Source of the DNA: an actinobacterium SCGC AAA278-O22
Lineage (GTDB): Bacteria > Actinomycetota > Actinomycetes > Nanopelagicales > Nanopelagicaceae
Assembly: GCA_000372185.1 (NCBI GenBank)
Contig: AQUA01000007.1
Location: 1-33,661 of the forward strand
Direction: 5' to 3'
Length of the DNA stretch: 33,661 nucleotides
Positions within the stretch are counted from its first letter, which is position 1. Each line of letters begins with the position of its first letter. The notes below the pieces were generated by a model, which was given only the letters and a program-made list of their open reading frames with translations, was not told the origin of the DNA and searched no databases. The position numbers and the translations under genes are program-made. Below are positions 4,607 through 13,098 of the stretch, one piece after another.

Positions 4607-7063
4607 ATGCGCGCACCGTTGTCTTGGATAAAAGAGTTTGTAGACATTCCTACCTCAATCTCTGCTCAAGAAATTGCCGATGGATTGGTTCGAGTCGGCT
4701 TTGAAGTCGAAGAAATCATTGAACAAGGTGCAGATCTCACGGGTCCTTTGGTATTCGCCAAGGTTTTGTCCATTGAGGAACTCACTGACTTCAAAAAGCC
4801 GGTTCGTTATGTAGGCCTCGATTGTGGTGAACAGCAGACGCGCTTTGTAATCTGCGGAGCAACAAACTTCGCCGTTAGCGATCTTGTCGTAGCTGCCCTG
4901 CCTGGTGCAGTTCTTCCAGGCAACTTCTCCATCGGAGCTCGCGAGACTTACGGCAAAACTTCCAATGGAATGATCTGTTCGGCGCGCGAACTTGGCTTAG
5001 GTGACGATCACTCTGGAATCATGACTTTCGCCCAGGGCACTGTAGAGATTGGCGCTGATGCAATTACTGGTTTGATGATTAACGATGTCATATTTGATGT
5101 GGCTGTTAATCCAGATCGCGGTTACGCCCTGAGCATTCGTGGCATGGCCCGCGAAATAGCAGCTTCACTTGGGCTCACATTCACTGATCCAGTAGATGCG
5201 CTACGTAACCTGACTTTTTCAGATACTGGCAAAGGTGTTACTGCCAAGATTATCGATTCATCTACCGCCTCAATCTTTTATCTTCGTACTCTTTCGCATT
5301 TCGATCCCTCAGCAAAAACACCGCTTTGGATGCGCCGCCGCATTGAAAAGATGGGGATGCGCTCGATTTCCCTTGTCGTTGATGTGACTAACTATGTAAT
5401 GCTCGAATTGGGTCAACCACTGCATGCATTCGACAAGTCGAAAATTAAAGGTGGTCTGACAATTAAGCGAGCCGGTAAAGCTCAGCCGTTTACCACTCTT
5501 GATGGCCAAGTACGTCAACTCGATCCAGATGATTTGATGGTCTGGGATGACGAGCAACCGTTGGCGCTGGCCGGAACAATGGGTGGTGCATCGTCTGAGA
5601 TTTCTGAAACCACAACGGATATCGCACTTGAAGCTGTTCGTTTCGATCCCATGTGTGTCGCCAAGAATTCACGCCGCCACAGACTTTCATCAGAAGCCTC
5701 GCGCCGCCTCGAACGAAGCGTCGATCCATCGCTGGCTCAATATGCGTCTGCTCGTTTTGTGCAGCTCCTCACCGAAAATAGTTCAGCTCAACATGTAGCC
5801 ACAGTGGTCGATGGCGAGCCTCGCTTTGCTCCAGTTGTAAAGCTCGATCCCTCCTACGTGTCACGTATCTTGGGCTTCGAGATTTCACCTTCGGTCATTG
5901 CCGACGTTCTGCGCACAATCGGTTGCGATGTCAATGAGAAGACCTTTGAAGTAGATCCTCCGGCATGGCGTTCAGATTTGTTGACTGAAGCGGATCTCAC
6001 AGAAGAAGTCGCGCGCATGATCGGTTACGACAAGATTCCGTCGGTACTTCCACCGCGGCCACTGCATGCTTCGCTCACATCCACTCAGAAACGACGCCGT
6101 GCAGTTGCTCAGATGTTGGCCAATCGAGGATTAGCTGAAGTTCAAACTTTTCCTTTCACCAATCAAGAGACCATCGATTTCATGGGATTCGTAGGTGATC
6201 GCGCAGCTACCTACAAGATAGCTAATCCAATGTCTGAAGAGTCTCCTCTCATGCGCGTGCATTTAGTTCCAGGTCTGATTGAAGTTGCACAACGAAATAT
6301 CAGTAGAGGTGCTAAAGATTTCGCAATCTTCGAGATGGGTTCTATCTTCCGAAGTTCTCAGAAACTTGTTCCTTTTATTTCTCCTGAACTCTCTAAGCGT
6401 CCTGTACAAAAGATTATTGATGAAATTTATGCAAGCGTTCCGCCTCAGCCATATCACGTTGCTGGATTGCTTGTTGGCAAAGTAGAGAATGAGGATTGGC
6501 AAGGCAAGGCACGCTCATATACCTGGCAAGATGCCATCGCCTACGCTCAAGATATTCTTCAACTGTGCAATCTCGAGTGGACAGTGAAGCGTTCTGATTT
6601 TGCTCCATGGCATCCAGGGCGCTGTGCCGAATTGATAGTCGATGGAAAAGCAGTGGCACATGCTGGTGAGCTTCATCCTCGAATCGTTGCTAAGTACGGC
6701 CTGCCAGAACGCTCGGCAGCATTTGCCGTAGGGCTCAGCGCGCTCCCTGATTCACAGTTGGTGCGCCCAACAACTGTAGGAACGATGCCGGCAGCGCTTC
6801 AAGATGTGGCTCTCATTGTTGATTCGACAATTTCCGCCGCTGAGGTCGAAGATGCGCTTCGTTCCGGGGCTGGCGAACTACTCGAATCCATCACGCTCTT
6901 CGACCGCTACGACAAACTGGGTGATGGCAAGATCTCTTTGGCCTTCTCCCTTGTCTTCCGCGCTCCAGATCGAACGCTTACTGGGGCAGAAGTCACCGAG
7001 ATGCGCGAGTCGGCAGTAGCTGCTGCTGTCAAGGCAACAGGAGCTGTACTCCGCACTGCATAA
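4607..7063 (+). CDS. pheT: Phenylalanyl-tRNA synthetase beta subunit
   Basis: Structural, editing and tRNA-binding partner of PheS. The 818 aa match the usual bacterial length. Domains in order: N-terminal B1; an EMAP/OB tRNA-binding fold around residues 40-150 (GATNF, GMICSARELGLGDDHSGIM); the B3/B4 editing module (DVAVNPDRGYALSIRG and on); B5 with RSDLLTEADLTEEVARMIGYD; a catalytic-like core; and a C-terminal FDX-ACB domain (PAALQDVALIVD, LFDRYDKLGDGKISLAF). The ATG directly follows the pheS stop. The 3' end and stop codon overlap the first ARG box of the arginine operon. Confidence 0.97.
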   Translation: MRAPLSWIKEFVDIPTSISAQEIADGLVRVGFEVEEIIEQGADLTGPLVFAKVLSIEELTDFKKPVRYVGLDCGEQQTRFVICGATNFAVSDLVVAALPGAVLPGNFSIGARETYGKTSNGMICSARELGLGDDHSGIMTFAQGTVEIGADAITGLMINDVIFDVAVNPDRGYALSIRGMAREIAASLGLTFTDPVDALRNLTFSDTGKGVTAKIIDSSTASIFYLRTLSHFDPSAKTPLWMRRRIEKMGMRSISLVVDVTNYVMLELGQPLHAFDKSKIKGGLTIKRAGKAQPFTTLDGQVRQLDPDDLMVWDDEQPLALAGTMGGASSEISETTTDIALEAVRFDPMCVAKNSRRHRLSSEASRRLERSVDPSLAQYASARFVQLLTENSSAQHVATVVDGEPRFAPVVKLDPSYVSRILGFEISPSVIADVLRTIGCDVNEKTFEVDPPAWRSDLLTEADLTEEVARMIGYDKIPSVLPPRPLHASLTSTQKRRRAVAQMLANRGLAEVQTFPFTNQETIDFMGFVGDRAATYKIANPMSEESPLMRVHLVPGLIEVAQRNISRGAKDFAIFEMGSIFRSSQKLVPFISPELSKRPVQKIIDEIYASVPPQPYHVAGLLVGKVENEDWQGKARSYTWQDAIAYAQDILQLCNLEWTVKRSDFAPWHPGRCAELIVDGKAVAHAGELHPRIVAKYGLPERSAAFAVGLSALPDSQLVRPTTVGTMPAALQDVALIVDSTISAAEVEDALRSGAGELLESITLFDRYDKLGDGKISLAFSLVFRAPDRTLTGAEVTEMRESAVAAAVKATGAVLRTA

Positions 7064-7095
7064 ATATGCATCTTTTTGCATAATTATGCTACTAT
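7058..7095 (+). promoter_or_regulatory. Tandem ARG boxes and argC promoter
   Basis: Two palindromes lie between and across the pheT stop and argC. GCATAAATATGC is at 7058-7069, and GCATAATTATGC, a perfect 12-bp palindrome, is at 7078-7089. Their centres are 20 bp apart, close to the spacing of paired ARG boxes bound by an ArgR hexamer. They match the AT-rich TGnAT-wwww-ATnCA style of known ARG boxes. TACTAT at 7090-7095 is a plausible -10, ending 6 bases before the argC ATG, so the transcript would be leaderless and ArgR bound at box 2 would block the promoter. The ArgR gene is in the same operon. Confidence 0.8.
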
Positions 7096-7101
7096 TGCTC
7101 C

Positions 7102-8121
7102 ATGAAAATCGGAGTCATAGGAGCCAGCGGCTATGCGGGAGGCGAACTACTACGCCTGCTTGCGAACCACCCCCATTTTGAGGTTGCTGCAATTACCGCA
7201 CATTCACATGCAGGAGATCCGATCGCTTCTGTGCACCCACAGTTACAGAGCTACGGTGATAAGAAGTTCAACGCTTTCAACGCTGCTGACTTTGCTGCAT
7301 GCGATTTAGTATTTCTAGCTTTACCTCATGGTGAGTCCGCAAAAATTGTTGGCGAACTTCCAACATCTGCAAAAATCGTGGACCTTGGCGCTGATTACAG
7401 ATTAGAGAGTGCCGAAGCTTGGTCCGCTTATTATGGTGGCGAATATGCAGGGGCTTGGACATATGGGCTTGCAGATATCGAACCCTTTAGATCAGATATA
7501 GCAAAGTCCTCGAAGGTAGCAAATCCTGGTTGCTATGCAACCTCCATCACACTGGGTGCAGCACCAGCTTCCGCTATCGCCGACTTCAGCGATGTAGTGG
7601 TTGTCGCAGCATCTGGAACAACCGGTGCAGGAAGGAGCGCAAAGATCAATCTCATCGCCAGCGAAGTTGCAGGTTCTCTTACTTCTTACAAATTTGGGGG
7701 AGTACATCAGCACACCCCAGAAATTGAACAAGCTCTCGCCAAAATTTCTGGCGCGGATACGAAGATTTCCTTTACCCCCATACTTGCTCCGATGCCACGT
7801 GGAATTCTTTCAACAGTTACTGCCAAACTCACTAAGAAAATTTCTACCGAAGAAGCGCATGCCTTGTATAAAGATTTCTTCGCACATTCACGCTTTGTCT
7901 CAGTACTTCCCATGGGAATGATGCCAAAGACAGCAGCTCTTACCGGTTCAAACCATGTTCAGATTCAAGTTGCGGTGGACTCACATACTTCTCGACTAGT
8001 TGTATCTGTTGCAATTGACAATCTTGGAAAGGGCGCCGCTGCCCAGGCGATCCAGAATGCCAATCTCATGTGTGGGATTGATGAATCAGCTGGCTTGAAG
8101 TTCGATGGGCTGGGCGTATGA
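7102..8121 (+). CDS. argC: N-acetyl-gamma-glutamyl-phosphate reductase
   Basis: NADPH-dependent reduction of N-acetylglutamyl-phosphate to the semialdehyde, the third step of arginine synthesis. It is 339 aa. A Rossmann motif GASGYAGGE is at residues 7-15, and the catalytic cysteine is Cys144 in NPGCYATS. The family segment HQHTPEIEQ follows. First gene of the arg operon; there is no Shine-Dalgarno before the ATG, consistent with the proposed leaderless promoter. The stop overlaps the argJ start by 4 bp (ATGA). Confidence 0.97.
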   Translation: MKIGVIGASGYAGGELLRLLANHPHFEVAAITAHSHAGDPIASVHPQLQSYGDKKFNAFNAADFAACDLVFLALPHGESAKIVGELPTSAKIVDLGADYRLESAEAWSAYYGGEYAGAWTYGLADIEPFRSDIAKSSKVANPGCYATSITLGAAPASAIADFSDVVVVAASGTTGAGRSAKINLIASEVAGSLTSYKFGGVHQHTPEIEQALAKISGADTKISFTPILAPMPRGILSTVTAKLTKKISTEEAHALYKDFFAHSRFVSVLPMGMMPKTAALTGSNHVQIQVAVDSHTSRLVVSVAIDNLGKGAAAQAIQNANLMCGIDESAGLKFDGLGV

Positions 8122-9263
8122 GCACACTTCCACAAGGCTTTCGAGGCGCTGCCATTGCAGCAGGGCTGAAAAGGAGCGGCGATCTTGATTTAACTCTTAT
8201 TGAAAATACTGGACCTCGCTTCGATGCTGCTGCCGTGTATACCTCAAATAAGGTCGTTGCAGCTCCTGTCATCTGGTCACGTCAAGTTACTCAAGGTGGA
8301 GTTGTGAGAGCAGCAGTTCTCAATTCTGGCGGTGCAAATGCGTGCACTGGTCCACAAGGATTTGCAGATACTCATCACACAGCAGAGAAAGTGGGGGAGT
8401 TACTTGGAATCTGTTCGGGCGAAGTTGTTGTCTGCTCTACAGGTCTTATCGGTGAACTTCTTCCCATGCCCAAAATTCTCGCTGGTTTAGAGTCAATCGC
8501 ACCAGCCTTGAAGACAGATTCTCTCGACGAGGTATCGAGAGCAATTATGACAACAGATAGCGTTCCCAAAGTTGCGACTACTTCTATCGGTGCTGCTCAA
8601 TTCGCAGGAATAGCAAAAGGCGCTGGCATGCTTGCGCCTGCACTAGCCACCATGCTTTCAGTGGTCATGACAGATGCAGTGTTGCCTGCTTCTGCTCAAA
8701 GAATATTTCTTCGTGTTACAGATAGAACCTTTAATCGGATTGATTCAGATGGGTGCACATCTACCAATGACACGGTCTTGCTGATGGGTAGTGGCGCATC
8801 TGGGGTAGCACTCACCGAACTAGAGCTTGAAGAAGCGTTAATGAGTATCTGCGGTTCTCTGGCCGCCCAATTAATAGCTGATGCTGAAGGGTCAACTAAA
8901 ACTGTCGCAATCACAGTAAAAGGTGCAGCAACCGAAGAAGATGCCGTTGAGGTGGCTCGTGCATGTGCACGCAATAATCTTCTGAAATGTGCAATCTTTG
9001 GCGCAGATCCTAACTGGGGTCGAGTACTTGCAGCCGTAGGTACAGCTGATGCACAGATGGATGCGCTCAATATTGATGTCATACTCAATGGAGTTCATGT
9101 TGCGAAAGCTTCTGCGCCTTTTGAAGATAAGGGCGCTGTTTCGTTCACCGATCGTTTGGTTAATCTCGAAGTCAATCTCAACGTGGGCACGGCGTCGGCA
9201 ACTGTTATGACGAACGATCTCTCACATGACTATGTTCACGAGAATTCGGCCTACTCAACATGA
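8118..9263 (+). CDS. argJ: Bifunctional ornithine acetyltransferase / N-acetylglutamate synthase
   Basis: Transfers the acetyl group from acetylornithine to glutamate, closing the acetyl cycle; many members also use acetyl-CoA to make acetylglutamate. It is 381 aa. The self-cleavage site is visible as KGAGMLAPALATML, where Thr178 would become the N-terminal nucleophile of the beta chain. Other family marks are NSGGANACTG, CSTGLIGE and DPNWGR. It overlaps argC and argB by 4 bp on each side (ATGA), implying translational coupling. Whether it is bi- or monofunctional cannot be decided from sequence alone. Confidence 0.96.
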   Translation: MSTLPQGFRGAAIAAGLKRSGDLDLTLIENTGPRFDAAAVYTSNKVVAAPVIWSRQVTQGGVVRAAVLNSGGANACTGPQGFADTHHTAEKVGELLGICSGEVVVCSTGLIGELLPMPKILAGLESIAPALKTDSLDEVSRAIMTTDSVPKVATTSIGAAQFAGIAKGAGMLAPALATMLSVVMTDAVLPASAQRIFLRVTDRTFNRIDSDGCTSTNDTVLLMGSGASGVALTELELEEALMSICGSLAAQLIADAEGSTKTVAITVKGAATEEDAVEVARACARNNLLKCAIFGADPNWGRVLAAVGTADAQMDALNIDVILNGVHVAKASAPFEDKGAVSFTDRLVNLEVNLNVGTASATVMTNDLSHDYVHENSAYST

Positions 9264-10045
9264 TTGTCATTAAATTTGGTGGCCATGCCATGACCGACGA
9301 ACATGGAGGATTTGCTCAAGCGATTGCTGATGCCATCACAGCCGGAGTTACTCCCGTAGTGATTCACGGCGGAGGTCCCCAAATTGGAGAAGCTCTCAAA
9401 ACTTCCGGGATAGAGTCTCAATTTGTTGGGGGATTCAGAGTCACAACACCTGAGGTTTTTGAAGTGGTAGAAAGAGTTTTGGTACATGACGTTGGTCCAG
9501 CAGTTGCTTCTTCGCTCCAAGCCCATGGGGTAGATGCAGTTGCAATCTCGGGTCGAACTTCCGGGACCTTGATTGCTGAGCCACTTACCTCACTTGTAGA
9601 TGGAACTCCGGCAGATCTAGGTTTGGTGGGAGTTGTTACTTCAGTACACATTGCAGAACTCACAAGGTTAGTTGCTCTTGGGAAAGTGCCTGTCGTTTCT
9701 CCAATCGCCACAGATGCGCACAAATCAATCGGTTTTAACGTTAATGCGGATTTAGCGGCGGCTGCGATTGCTGGAGCACTCGATGCTCAATGGCTGATCA
9801 TCATGACCGATGTTGAGGGAATCTATAGAAATTGGCCGGATAAGAGCTCACTGATCTCGTCTATCTGCGCCGAAGAGTTGGAATCGTTGAAGTCTGGATT
9901 TGCTGAGGGAATGGCTCCAAAAGTTCAAGCTTGTCTCGATGCAATCGCAGCAGGTGCAAAGGCAGTTCGCATTATCGATGGAACTAATCCATCGGCTCTT
10001 AAAGATGCTCTCTTAGGTGAGGGCGGAACGTTGGTGGTTGCATGA
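9260..10045 (+). CDS. argB: Acetylglutamate kinase, short N-terminus
   Basis: Phosphorylates N-acetylglutamate with ATP. Amino-acid kinase fold with the nucleotide loop KFGGHAM directly at the start, HGGGPQI, GGFRVTTPEV, and FNVNADLAAAAIAGAL. It is 261 aa, about 30 shorter than arginine-inhibited kinases such as the mycobacterial enzyme, because the N-terminal helix before the first beta strand is missing. A longer start is excluded: an in-frame TGA lies at 9227-9229, and the ten codons between it and the ATG include no start codon. The C-terminus reads IIDGTNPSAL, without the histidine that arginine-sensitive homologues carry there. The likely consequence, weak or absent feedback inhibition, is inference. 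Confidence 0.95.
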   Translation: MIVIKFGGHAMTDEHGGFAQAIADAITAGVTPVVIHGGGPQIGEALKTSGIESQFVGGFRVTTPEVFEVVERVLVHDVGPAVASSLQAHGVDAVAISGRTSGTLIAEPLTSLVDGTPADLGLVGVVTSVHIAELTRLVALGKVPVVSPIATDAHKSIGFNVNADLAAAAIAGALDAQWLIIMTDVEGIYRNWPDKSSLISSICAEELESLKSGFAEGMAPKVQACLDAIAAGAKAVRIIDGTNPSALKDALLGEGGTLVVA

Positions 10046-11199
10046 AACGTTGGCAGAAAGCGCTTTTAAATAACTATGGAACTCCAAGTATAGAACTTGT
10101 GTCCGGTAAAGGATCCTTTGTTACAGATATTGATGGTAAGAGCTACCTCGATTTCTTGGCAGGTATTGCTACCAATGTGTTGGGTCACGCCCATCCTGCG
10201 GTAGTCAAAGCTGTGACTAAACAGGTTGCGACGTTAGGGCACGTGAGCAATTTCTACGCGCATCCCAATGGATTGGAGTTAGCTGAAAAACTTCAAAAGA
10301 TCACCGGAGATAAGAGCGCACGCATCTTCTTCTGTAATTCTGGCGCCGAAGCAAATGAGGCTGCGCTCAAACTTTCGCGAAAGACAGGAAAGTACAAGAT
10401 TGTCGCAACCCAAGAAGCGTTTCATGGACGCACTATGGGAGCACTTTCGTTGACAGGCCAACCCTCAAAACGCAATCCATTTAAGCCGCTCCTTAAGGGA
10501 GTTAAGCATGTTCCATTCGGTGATTCACTAGCTATGAAACGTGCAATTTCTAAGAAGACAGCAATGGTGATTGTTGAACCAATCATGGGTGAAGCAGGAG
10601 TCATAGTTCCGCCAGCTGACTACCTCAAAAATCTACGTGAATACTGCGACCGCAGTGGAGCACTCCTTGTTATCGATTGTGTGCAAACTGGAATGGGGCG
10701 TACCGGCGATTGGTTCGGGTATGAATATTCTGGGATCAAACCCGATGTCATCACACTGGCGAAAGGTCTTGGAGGTGGGCTTCCATTAGGCGCCATGATC
10801 GCTATCGGCTCAGCGGCACAATTATTTGAAGCTGGAGACCACGGAACAACATTTGGAGGCAATCCAATAGCGACGGCAGCCGGATTAGCAGTGATTTCAA
10901 CGATTGAAAAAGAGAAGATACTCGACAACGTTGATGCAGTTGGAGAGTACTTACTCACAGAGTTGGCTCTTATTCCAGGAGTGATCGAAGTCCGCGGAGC
11001 AGGACTTCTCATAGGTCTTACTCTCGAAAAACCAGTTGCGAAGGCAGTTCTCAAAAAGTGCCAAGAATTAGGATCCCTTATCAATGCGCCTGGTGAATCA
11101 GTTATTCGTCTGGCTCCTGCGCTCAATCTTTCCATGAAGAATGCCGAGAAATTTGTGAAAATTTTTACGCAAGCACTTCAGGAGGTTTCTCATGTCTAG
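10042..11199 (+). CDS. argD: Acetylornithine aminotransferase
   Basis: PLP enzyme making N-acetylornithine from the semialdehyde with glutamate as amino donor. It is 385 aa, a class III aminotransferase. It has FFCNSGAEANEAALKLSRK, AFHGRTMGALS, VEPIMGEAGV, and the PLP lysine Lys241 in LAKGLGGGLPLG. The cofactor Asp212 is followed by Cys213 (IDCVQTG), where nearly all relatives have glutamate (DEVQTG). The start overlaps argB by 4 bp. The 3' end contains a near-perfect Shine-Dalgarno for argR. Confidence 0.95.
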   Translation: MKRWQKALLNNYGTPSIELVSGKGSFVTDIDGKSYLDFLAGIATNVLGHAHPAVVKAVTKQVATLGHVSNFYAHPNGLELAEKLQKITGDKSARIFFCNSGAEANEAALKLSRKTGKYKIVATQEAFHGRTMGALSLTGQPSKRNPFKPLLKGVKHVPFGDSLAMKRAISKKTAMVIVEPIMGEAGVIVPPADYLKNLREYCDRSGALLVIDCVQTGMGRTGDWFGYEYSGIKPDVITLAKGLGGGLPLGAMIAIGSAAQLFEAGDHGTTFGGNPIATAAGLAVISTIEKEKILDNVDAVGEYLLTELALIPGVIEVRGAGLLIGLTLEKPVAKAVLKKCQELGSLINAPGESVIRLAPALNLSMKNAEKFVKIFTQALQEVSHV

Positions 11200-11671
11200 C
11201 GTGACAGCGCGCAGAGCAAAAGCTATCGCTCTGATCAAGGCAGGGCTCATCCATTCTCAATCTGACTTGGTGAAACAATTGAAGAAGGCTGGCTTTCCAG
11301 TTACACAGGCAACTGCGAGTCGTGATCTTGAAGAGATTGGTGCGGTCAGAGGACGTTCGACAACGGGGGAATCTATCTACAAGATTTCAGATAGCGACGA
11401 TGAGTCAATTTCTCGCACCCTGCCTGTCCCCTCTGACCTCATCATCTCGGTTGAAGCCAGTGGAAATCTCGCGGTTGTGCGCACACCACCTGGGGGAGCG
11501 CAGCTTTTAGCGAGTTCATTAGATCACTCTGGAATTACCGACATCATCGGCACGATTGCAGGTGACGACACGGTTCTGGTTGTTTCCAGAAAAGCCAGTG
11601 GTGGAGCCCAACTAGCGAAAGAATTGCTGGCTTACGGCGGTTTGAAGAGAAGTGGAAGAGGTAGCAAATAA
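11192..11671 (+). CDS. argR: Arginine repressor ArgR
   Basis: Hexameric arginine-responsive repressor. It is 159 aa. The N-terminal winged helix has the recognition segment VTQATASRDLEEIG (residues about 37-50). The C-terminal oligomerisation and arginine-binding domain includes GTIAGDDTVLVVSR, whose Asp pair contacts arginine in known structures. AGGAGG at 11180-11185, inside argD, gives it one of the strongest ribosome sites in the window. It overlaps argD by 8 bp and argH by 1 bp. It most likely binds the ARG boxes at 7058-7089 and thus controls its own operon. Confidence 0.96.
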   Translation: MSSVTARRAKAIALIKAGLIHSQSDLVKQLKKAGFPVTQATASRDLEEIGAVRGRSTTGESIYKISDSDDESISRTLPVPSDLIISVEASGNLAVVRTPPGGAQLLASSLDHSGITDIIGTIAGDDTVLVVSRKASGGAQLAKELLAYGGLKRSGRGSK

Positions 11672-13098
11672 TGGCGCTCTGGGGCGGACGTTTTTCGCAG
11701 GCACCGGCTGATGCTGTCTTCGCACTTTCTCGTAGCGTTCACTTCGACTGGCGTTTGGCGCCTTACGACCTGAGATCTTCTTTGGCGCACCTTTCGGTCT
11801 TGCATTCCAGCGGACTACTAGAAGATTCTGTCGTTGAACAGATCCGTGGTGCGCTACATGAGTTGATTACTGAAGTTTCATCCGGAAAGTTTGAAGCAAC
11901 TGCCACCGACGAAGATGTCCATAGCGCTCTTGAAAGAGGGCTCACTGAAAAGCTCGGTGCCATTGGAGGATCTTTGCGCGCAGGTCGTTCACGTAATGAT
12001 CAAGTAGCAACGGATCTTCGCCTCTACGCGATAGATCACATGATTGAAGTTGCTCAGCAGATTATCGAACTTCAAAAATCGTTGATTGCTAAAGCATCTG
12101 AATATGCAGATGCGCCAGCACCTGGATTCACTCATCTCCAACACGCCCAACCTGTTCTCTTTGGCCATGAAATTGCAAAGCATGTTCACGCTTTTTCTCG
12201 CGATCTCGACCGAATTCATGACTGGCTAGATCGCGCACTTGTAAGTCCCCTCGGGTCAGGAGCTCTTGCCGGATCATCTCTTCCACTTGCACCTGAAGTG
12301 ACCGCTAAGAAACTCGGATTTTCCTCGAGCGCTGCGAATTCAATTGACGCAGTTTCAGATCGCGACTTCGTTGCCGAATCGCTCTTCATTCTCTCGATGG
12401 TTGGAATACATCTGTCGCGTATTGGTGAAGAGTGGTGCATCTGGGCAACCACAGAATTTGGCTGGGCGAAAGTTGCAGATGCTTATTCAACAGGTTCATC
12501 CATCATGCCTCAAAAGAAGAACCCAGATATGGCAGAGCTTGCGCGAGGTAAGGCAGGAAGACTTGTTGGCAATCTGACAGGCGTTCTCACGATGCTTAAG
12601 GGACTTCCATTTGCTTATAACCGTGATCTTCAAGAAGATAAAGAGCCGCTCTTCGATTCAATTGATACTGTTTTGCTCGTTCTTCCTGCAGTAACCGGAA
12701 TGGTTGCAACGACAGATTTTGATCGCGAGAAGATGGCACTTGCTGCGCCACTTGGTTTCTCCTTAGCTACTGAGATTGCAGATTATCTGGTGCGTGCGAA
12801 GGTTCCATTCGCGCAGGCACACGAAGCCGCCGGAAAGTGCGTTGCGCTATGTGAAGCATCTGGAAGACAGTTGCATCAACTGACCGATAAGGAATTCGAA
12901 TCGATACATCCGCAGCTTAAGAGCGATGTGCGAGATGTACTCACCGTCCATGGAGCCCTTGAATCACGAACGACAAGAGGAGGAACCTCTCCATCTTCAT
13001 TCGAGGCGCAAATCAAGGATGCAACAGCCATCACGGATTCGTATTCCAAAGAATTCACCGACAAGGCCAAGAGCTTTTCCGAGATGATGGGTGGGTGA
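11671..13098 (+). CDS. argH: Argininosuccinate lyase
   Basis: Splits argininosuccinate into arginine and fumarate, the last step of the pathway. It is 475 aa. The fumarase/aspartase-superfamily signature GSSIMPQKKNPD is present, with RSRNDQVATDLRLY, GFTHLQHAQPV and GALAGSSLPL. The start overlaps the argR stop as TAATG. In related actinobacteria argF lies between argD and argR, and argG before argH; both are absent here. Confidence 0.97.
   Translation: MALWGGRFSQAPADAVFALSRSVHFDWRLAPYDLRSSLAHLSVLHSSGLLEDSVVEQIRGALHELITEVSSGKFEATATDEDVHSALERGLTEKLGAIGGSLRAGRSRNDQVATDLRLYAIDHMIEVAQQIIELQKSLIAKASEYADAPAPGFTHLQHAQPVLFGHEIAKHVHAFSRDLDRIHDWLDRALVSPLGSGALAGSSLPLAPEVTAKKLGFSSSAANSIDAVSDRDFVAESLFILSMVGIHLSRIGEEWCIWATTEFGWAKVADAYSTGSSIMPQKKNPDMAELARGKAGRLVGNLTGVLTMLKGLPFAYNRDLQEDKEPLFDSIDTVLLVLPAVTGMVATTDFDREKMALAAPLGFSLATEIADYLVRAKVPFAQAHEAAGKCVALCEASGRQLHQLTDKEFESIHPQLKSDVRDVLTVHGALESRTTRGGTSPSSFEAQIKDATAITDSYSKEFTDKAKSFSEMMGG

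Follow-up and report, generated by a model that had tools for sequence, protein, structure and literature searches.

A short NAG kinase lacking the N-terminal helix in Nanopelagicaceae, probably derived from a long arginine-sensitive actinobacterial enzyme

Introduction

NAG kinase (NAGK, ArgB) is the usual feedback point of arginine synthesis where ornithine acetyltransferase (ArgJ) recycles the acetyl group, and pathways of this kind are described as being regulated in general by arginine acting on ArgB, by ornithine acting on ArgJ, or by both (PMC3827942). As set out in an account that includes the yeast enzyme, arginine-sensitive NAGKs bear an N-terminal extension, and the arginine adjoins that extension (PMC3329491). 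A published sensitivity test looks for three features: a signature at the N terminus, a central Lys and a second signature at the C terminus (PMC3084294). A further review, whose residue numbering (C. glutamicum/C. crenatum) we follow throughout, includes Glu19, His26, Arg209, His268 and Gly287 in its list, Gly287 being a mutated feedback position (PMC10464499).

Two kinds of described enzyme are the closest points of comparison. The NAGKs of Mycobacterium tuberculosis (2ap9, 7nlf) and Corynebacterium glutamicum are arginine-sensitive hexamers; that of Escherichia coli (1gs5) is an arginine-insensitive dimer. The ArgB described here, from the Nanopelagicaceae, a family of streamlined, tiny freshwater bacteria, is closest to the former pair over the whole core and shares their type of argJ–argB junction. 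Unlike them, however, it has no N-helix and no central Lys, His268 or Glu281. It resembles the E. coli enzyme in being short and in lacking both the helix and the arginine-site residues, but differs from it in descent and in its pathway, which has ArgJ where that of E. coli has ArgE. In the open-licence literature we found no account of a loss of ArgB feedback in Nanopelagicaceae.

Results and Discussion

The arg cluster and the sequences compared

The window, that is, the whole stretch of 33,661 nucleotides that was analyzed, is part of contig C7 of a 1.14-Mb assembly that is 75% complete. Its arg genes and the features discussed below are listed in Table 1; they include argJ, in keeping with the statement in a preliminary description of this DNA that the pathway uses ArgJ. 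The 261-residue ArgB scored 203.3 bits against the curated profile TIGR00761 (argB; cut-off 151.3) and is therefore a NAG kinase.

Table 1. Positions in the window of the arg genes, the arginine-site codons and the ARG-box-like palindromes
Feature	Coordinates	Strand	Basis or remark
ARG-box-like palindrome 1, TGCATAAATATGCA	7057..7070	.	overlaps the pheT stop codon
ARG-box-like palindrome 2, TGCATAATTATGCT	7077..7090	.	20 bp after palindrome 1
argC	7102..8121	+	TIGR01850, 371.8 bits (cut-off 233.6)
argJ, ornithine acetyltransferase	8118..9263	+	4-bp overlap of its stop with the argB start
In-frame TGA closing the argB frame on its 5′ side	9227..9229	+	no start codon from there to 9260
argB, short NAG kinase without N-terminal helix, 261 aa	9260..10045	+	start MIVIKFGG
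W178 codon, at the central Lys position (C. glutamicum Arg209) of sensitive NAGKs	9791..9793	+	site alignment
R237 codon, at the His268 position	9968..9970	+	site alignment
A250 codon, at the Glu281 position	10007..10009	+	site alignment
argD	10042..11199	+	PRK03244, 574.1 bits (cut-off 457)
argR, arginine repressor with GTIAGDDT motif	11192..11671	+	M. tuberculosis ArgR alignment
argH	11671..13098	+	TIGR00838, 547.7 bits (cut-off 279.5)

ArgB matches were found in 187 of 201 genomes of the order, all from one family, the Nanopelagicaceae. We compared 130 Nanopelagicaceae argB loci, which encode 113 distinct proteins. The site table covers 110 distinct Nanopelagicaceae sequences and 55 from the rest of the class; three Nanopelagicaceae loci (L127, L128 and L132) and one class locus (L131) were left out as incomplete, and L129 and L130 were not entered. 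Identical proteins were counted once and near relatives apart, and some genomes stand under two locus identifiers. Columns of the kinase core, for example K34, H67, G68, G69, R91, N190, D194 and K251 (L163 numbering), are invariant in all 110 Nanopelagicaceae sequences, so ArgB appears to have been kept for catalysis in this family. A broken arginine pathway was ruled out, since argF and argG scored over their cut-offs elsewhere in the genome in 19 of 19 genomes. Three Nanopelagicaceae genomes with listed completeness of 92–97% (G048, G069 and G087) gave no match over the argB cut-off; these may be arginine auxotrophs or assembly gaps.

ArgB begins at the kinase core

The preliminary description held that ArgB has no start longer than MIVIKFGG and lacks the N-terminal helix, and both statements stood up to comparison. 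Between the in-frame TGA and the ATG at 9260 lie ten codons (CTA TGT TCA CGA GAA TTC GGC CTA CTC AAC), not one of them a start, which rules out a missed longer frame. The helix motif LP[WYF], sought in the open residues 5′ of the core, occurs at 0 of the 130 Nanopelagicaceae loci versus 54 of the 56 loci elsewhere in the class; seen over 130 loci, the absence of the helix is not an artefact of a single assembly. A start codon 20 to 50 codons upstream of the core was present at 55 of the 56 other class loci, the exception (L168) having its start at −66.

At least 20 codons are open upstream of the core at 22 of the 130 Nanopelagicaceae loci, and the residues encoded there bear no helix motif and are not helix-like. 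In 11 of these 22 a start codon lies at −15 to −19, and L205, one of the 11, has a further start at −23. In L205 to L207 the open upstream residues lie over the end of argJ, and the 4-bp overlap of the argJ stop with the short start persists. The basal Nanopelagicaceae member L114 (genome G135) carries a nine-residue stub at the place where the N-helix ended.

The arginine-site residues are replaced

The central Lys position (C. glutamicum Arg209) was transferred by spacing from His268, and Glu281 is a position that we take to belong to the arginine site. The 13-residue spacing between His268 and Glu281 agrees with His271/Glu284 in a table of PMC10464499. The C-terminal arginine-site histidine, whose absence had been proposed for the window, is indeed replaced there by Arg237 and is found in 0 of the 110 Nanopelagicaceae sequences versus 45 of the 55 from the rest of the class. 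The difference is sharper at Glu281 (0/110 versus 54/55), at the central Lys (2/110 versus 53/55) and at the Thr of the next loop (0/110 versus 55/55). His268 itself varies within the class, as do Glu19 of the N-helix (37 of 55 class sequences) and His26, which is unconserved there; thus not every marker is diagnostic, and the histidine taken alone is a weak one. Judged against the arginine-sensitive NAGKs, the window protein has lost the N-helix, the central Lys/Arg, His268 and Glu281. Gly287, a loop glycine, is retained, as G256 in the window and in 105 of 110 Nanopelagicaceae sequences versus 54 of 55 from the class. It is the sole tested marker of sensitivity left, and its retention weakens the reading of an insensitive enzyme that we prefer.

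The replacements are themselves nearly fixed in the Nanopelagicaceae: 103 of 110 sequences have Arg at the position of His268, and 109 of 110 have Ala at that of Glu281; L114 has Leu, not Arg, at the former. Near fixation is what speaks for a rebuilt site, for example one in which the fixed Arg and Ala take part, through which ArgB would still be inhibited by arginine, and the yeast NAGK oligomer is described as differing around the arginine site (PMC3329491). Even in yeast, however, the enzyme relies on an N-terminal extension, and a positive charge at the site would be expected to repel the guanidinium group of arginine. We regard inhibition through a rebuilt site as improbable.

Descent from long actinobacterial NAGKs

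The preliminary description also, in effect, placed ArgB with the E. coli-type enzymes. In architecture this is apt, since the N-helix and the arginine-site residues are missing; in descent it is not, since by similarity and by tree the protein groups with the long actinobacterial NAGKs rather than with the one E. coli sequence compared. Among solved structures the long NAGK chains of M. tuberculosis matched best, at 204.6 and 203.3 bits, compared with 51.8 bits for the E. coli enzyme, and the mean identity of the window ArgB is 44% to the 55 other class members versus 28% to E. coli NAGK. In a quick tree of the core columns (83 rows), in which E. coli NAGK forms a very long branch, the 46 Nanopelagicaceae rows need one label change, with support of 74. 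Of these, 44 form a clade with support of 98, and the two least reduced members, L114 and L158, lie at an unresolved base; given this and the support of 74, two losses are possible. The architecture is a known one and its origin separate. Horizontal transfer of an insensitive NAGK gene of the E. coli type would yield the same short architecture, but it is contradicted by the identities, the structure search and the tree, the last of which sampled few short NAGKs of other phyla. The gene also occupies the same place in the cluster, between argJ and argD. We therefore consider such a transfer extremely unlikely.

The junction with argJ points to what was removed. The 4-bp overlap of the argJ stop with the short argB start is present at 102 of 104 Nanopelagicaceae loci, and a 4-bp overlap with the long start is possible at 42 of 54 other class loci, a count that leans toward overlap as it took, among the possible starts, the one nearest to a 4-bp overlap. 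As the junction is similar in the short and long forms, the part that the short form lacks is the helix segment lying between argJ and the kinase core.

From these comparisons we consider it very probable that the window ArgB is an active, arginine-insensitive NAGK, likely a plain dimer, that arose from a long, sensitive NAGK through a family-wide ancestral loss. The sequences suggest, rather than establish, the insensitivity, the dimeric state, the direction of the loss and its having been a single change. The ancestor would have been a long, arginine-sensitive actinobacterial NAGK from which the helix-coding segment between argJ and the kinase core was lost in the ancestor of the Nanopelagicaceae, and the arginine site of the C-lobe (central Lys, His268 and Glu281) would have decayed. 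Control by arginine would then be exerted at least by ArgR acting on the tandem ARG-box-like site that precedes argC, and perhaps also by inhibition of a retained short NAGS or by ornithine at ArgJ, as relatives suggest. A point against this reading is the statement in the review PMC10464499 that the hexameric form need not be the cause of arginine sensitivity.

ArgR and a conserved tandem site before argC

The alignment of the window ArgR with that of M. tuberculosis extends through GTIAGDDT, and the scores of the window protein are under both of the best curated cut-offs (153.3 of 200 bits and 130.0 of 130.45 bits). ArgR lies downstream of argB at all 36 Nanopelagicaceae loci having at least 1.9 kb there. 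The pair of ARG-box-like palindromes before argC was present in all 39 relatives for which 2.4 kb upstream was available, whereas none of 780 dinucleotide shuffles and none of 36 stretches from downstream contained it; the 39 relatives are close kin, so the count shows conservation and not 39 independent cases. In a first count the pair was present at 47 of 82 Nanopelagicaceae loci, and all 35 misses had less than 2.0 kb upstream, which cannot reach argC; the later count was limited to the 39 loci for this reason. The class loci, mostly with 1.5 kb upstream, allow no fair comparison for ARG-boxes.

A scan with the E. coli ARG-box consensus gave 11 matches versus 13.3 expected, not above chance. 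The form TGCATAWWTATGCW, which was derived from two of the matches of that scan, gave 21 at up to three mismatches versus 13.4 expected, and 7 of 100 shuffles reached 21. The case for the boxes thus lies in the presence of two spaced copies without mismatch and in the conservation of this pair, not in scan counts. Of ten genomes scanned at no more than one mismatch, eight had both boxes in front of the argB cluster, G015 had one there and G025 none; single boxes occurred elsewhere too. From the conservation of the pair we infer that ArgR would bind this tandem site.

An ORF at 4607-7063, pheT by eye, precedes argC; its stop lies within palindrome 1, and the gap to argC is just 38 bp. At L011–L014, L041, L046, L058 and L062 and in G008 and G014, the box pair lies ~1.03–1.09 kb before argB, at the place where argJ would begin, instead of ~2.2 kb before it, and argC may no longer belong to the operon there.

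A short NAGS and other possible brakes

The assembly encodes on contig C12 (L189:3821-4315, minus strand) a 164-residue protein with a single GNAT domain that scored 267.8 bits with PRK07922 (cut-off 180) and matched M. tuberculosis NAGS structures at 205 bits. By these matches it is a short-type NAGS, orthologous to the M. tuberculosis enzyme; its neighbors look like LysS and ClpC by eye. In a survey with profile NF005921, a short NAGS scored over the cut-off in 34 of 35 Nanopelagicaceae genomes, the one miss being a 78% complete genome and the matches in G004 and G037 holding an internal stop, and in 12 of 13 other genomes of the class. Its occurrence in both groups suggests that it is probably ancestral.

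This enzyme offers a second point of control. All microbial NAGS previously known were inhibited by arginine, according to PMC3827942, and control may have shifted to step 1, with an arginine-inhibited short NAGS throttling the entry of acetyl groups, so that ArgB need not sense arginine. But the short NAGS is equally present alongside long ArgB in the class, which leaves the ArgB loss unexplained; NAGS is described as just anaplerotic where ArgJ recycles acetyl groups (PMC3827942, PMC10464499); and the short M. tuberculosis enzyme is reported to have a very high Km for glutamate (PMC4490483). We hold step-1 control to be a tentative possibility, and one that would supplement the descent of an insensitive ArgB from a long enzyme without replacing it.

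The preliminary description had gone further, suggesting that flux control moved to ArgR alone. The part concerning ArgR held, as the repressor and its likely operator are conserved; "alone" was not established. That arginine inhibits none of the pathway enzymes, and that repression by ArgR is the only brake, would fit the conserved ArgR and paired site together with the loss of the ArgB markers. On the other side, the pathway includes the short NAGS and ArgJ, either of which might be subject to inhibition, ornithine being able to inhibit ArgJ in relatives (PMC3827942), and binding by ArgR is itself deduced. An only brake at ArgR is thus one of several readings, and we think it rather unlikely.

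Equally doubtful, in our view, is the broader proposition that the Nanopelagicaceae gave up enzyme-level arginine feedback yet kept acetyl recycling by ArgJ, leaving synthesis under transcriptional control only. If true, this would be a natural feedback-free pathway, created when a regulatory helix was cleanly removed at the junction of two genes that overlap. The family-wide loss of the sensor with the argJ junction kept would constitute a natural experiment on the simplification of metabolic control in small-genome, slow-growing bacteria, and makes testable the question of whether enzyme-level feedback is dispensable when ArgR remains. It would also provide a large set of natural NAGKs, probably free of feedback, that might serve in arginine production.

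A parallel case outside the class

Short ArgB frames also occurred in a second actinobacterial family, f51, from another class of the phylum (phylum sample, 159 genomes). Five of its 13 genomes were compared, having been picked for short frames, and three of their loci (L217, L218 and L221) are near copies. At L217 to L221 the short ArgB, 35–37% identical to that of the window, lies beside an ArgJ-like frame; Arg occupies the His268 position, the central Lys is replaced by Thr or His, and Glu281 by Arg, Asp or Gly. The replacement of the arginine site in f51 is apparently independent of that in the Nanopelagicaceae, and a short ArgB with ArgJ is accordingly not unique to the latter. The same combination exists in Bacillus subtilis.

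A last observation concerns argG in one genome, G007. Two adjoining short argG matches (G007:C2:579461-579739; profile positions 1-30 and 329-390) lie near argB (581452-582243), and an intact argG is present elsewhere; the fragments look like remnants of an argG that decayed within the arg cluster.
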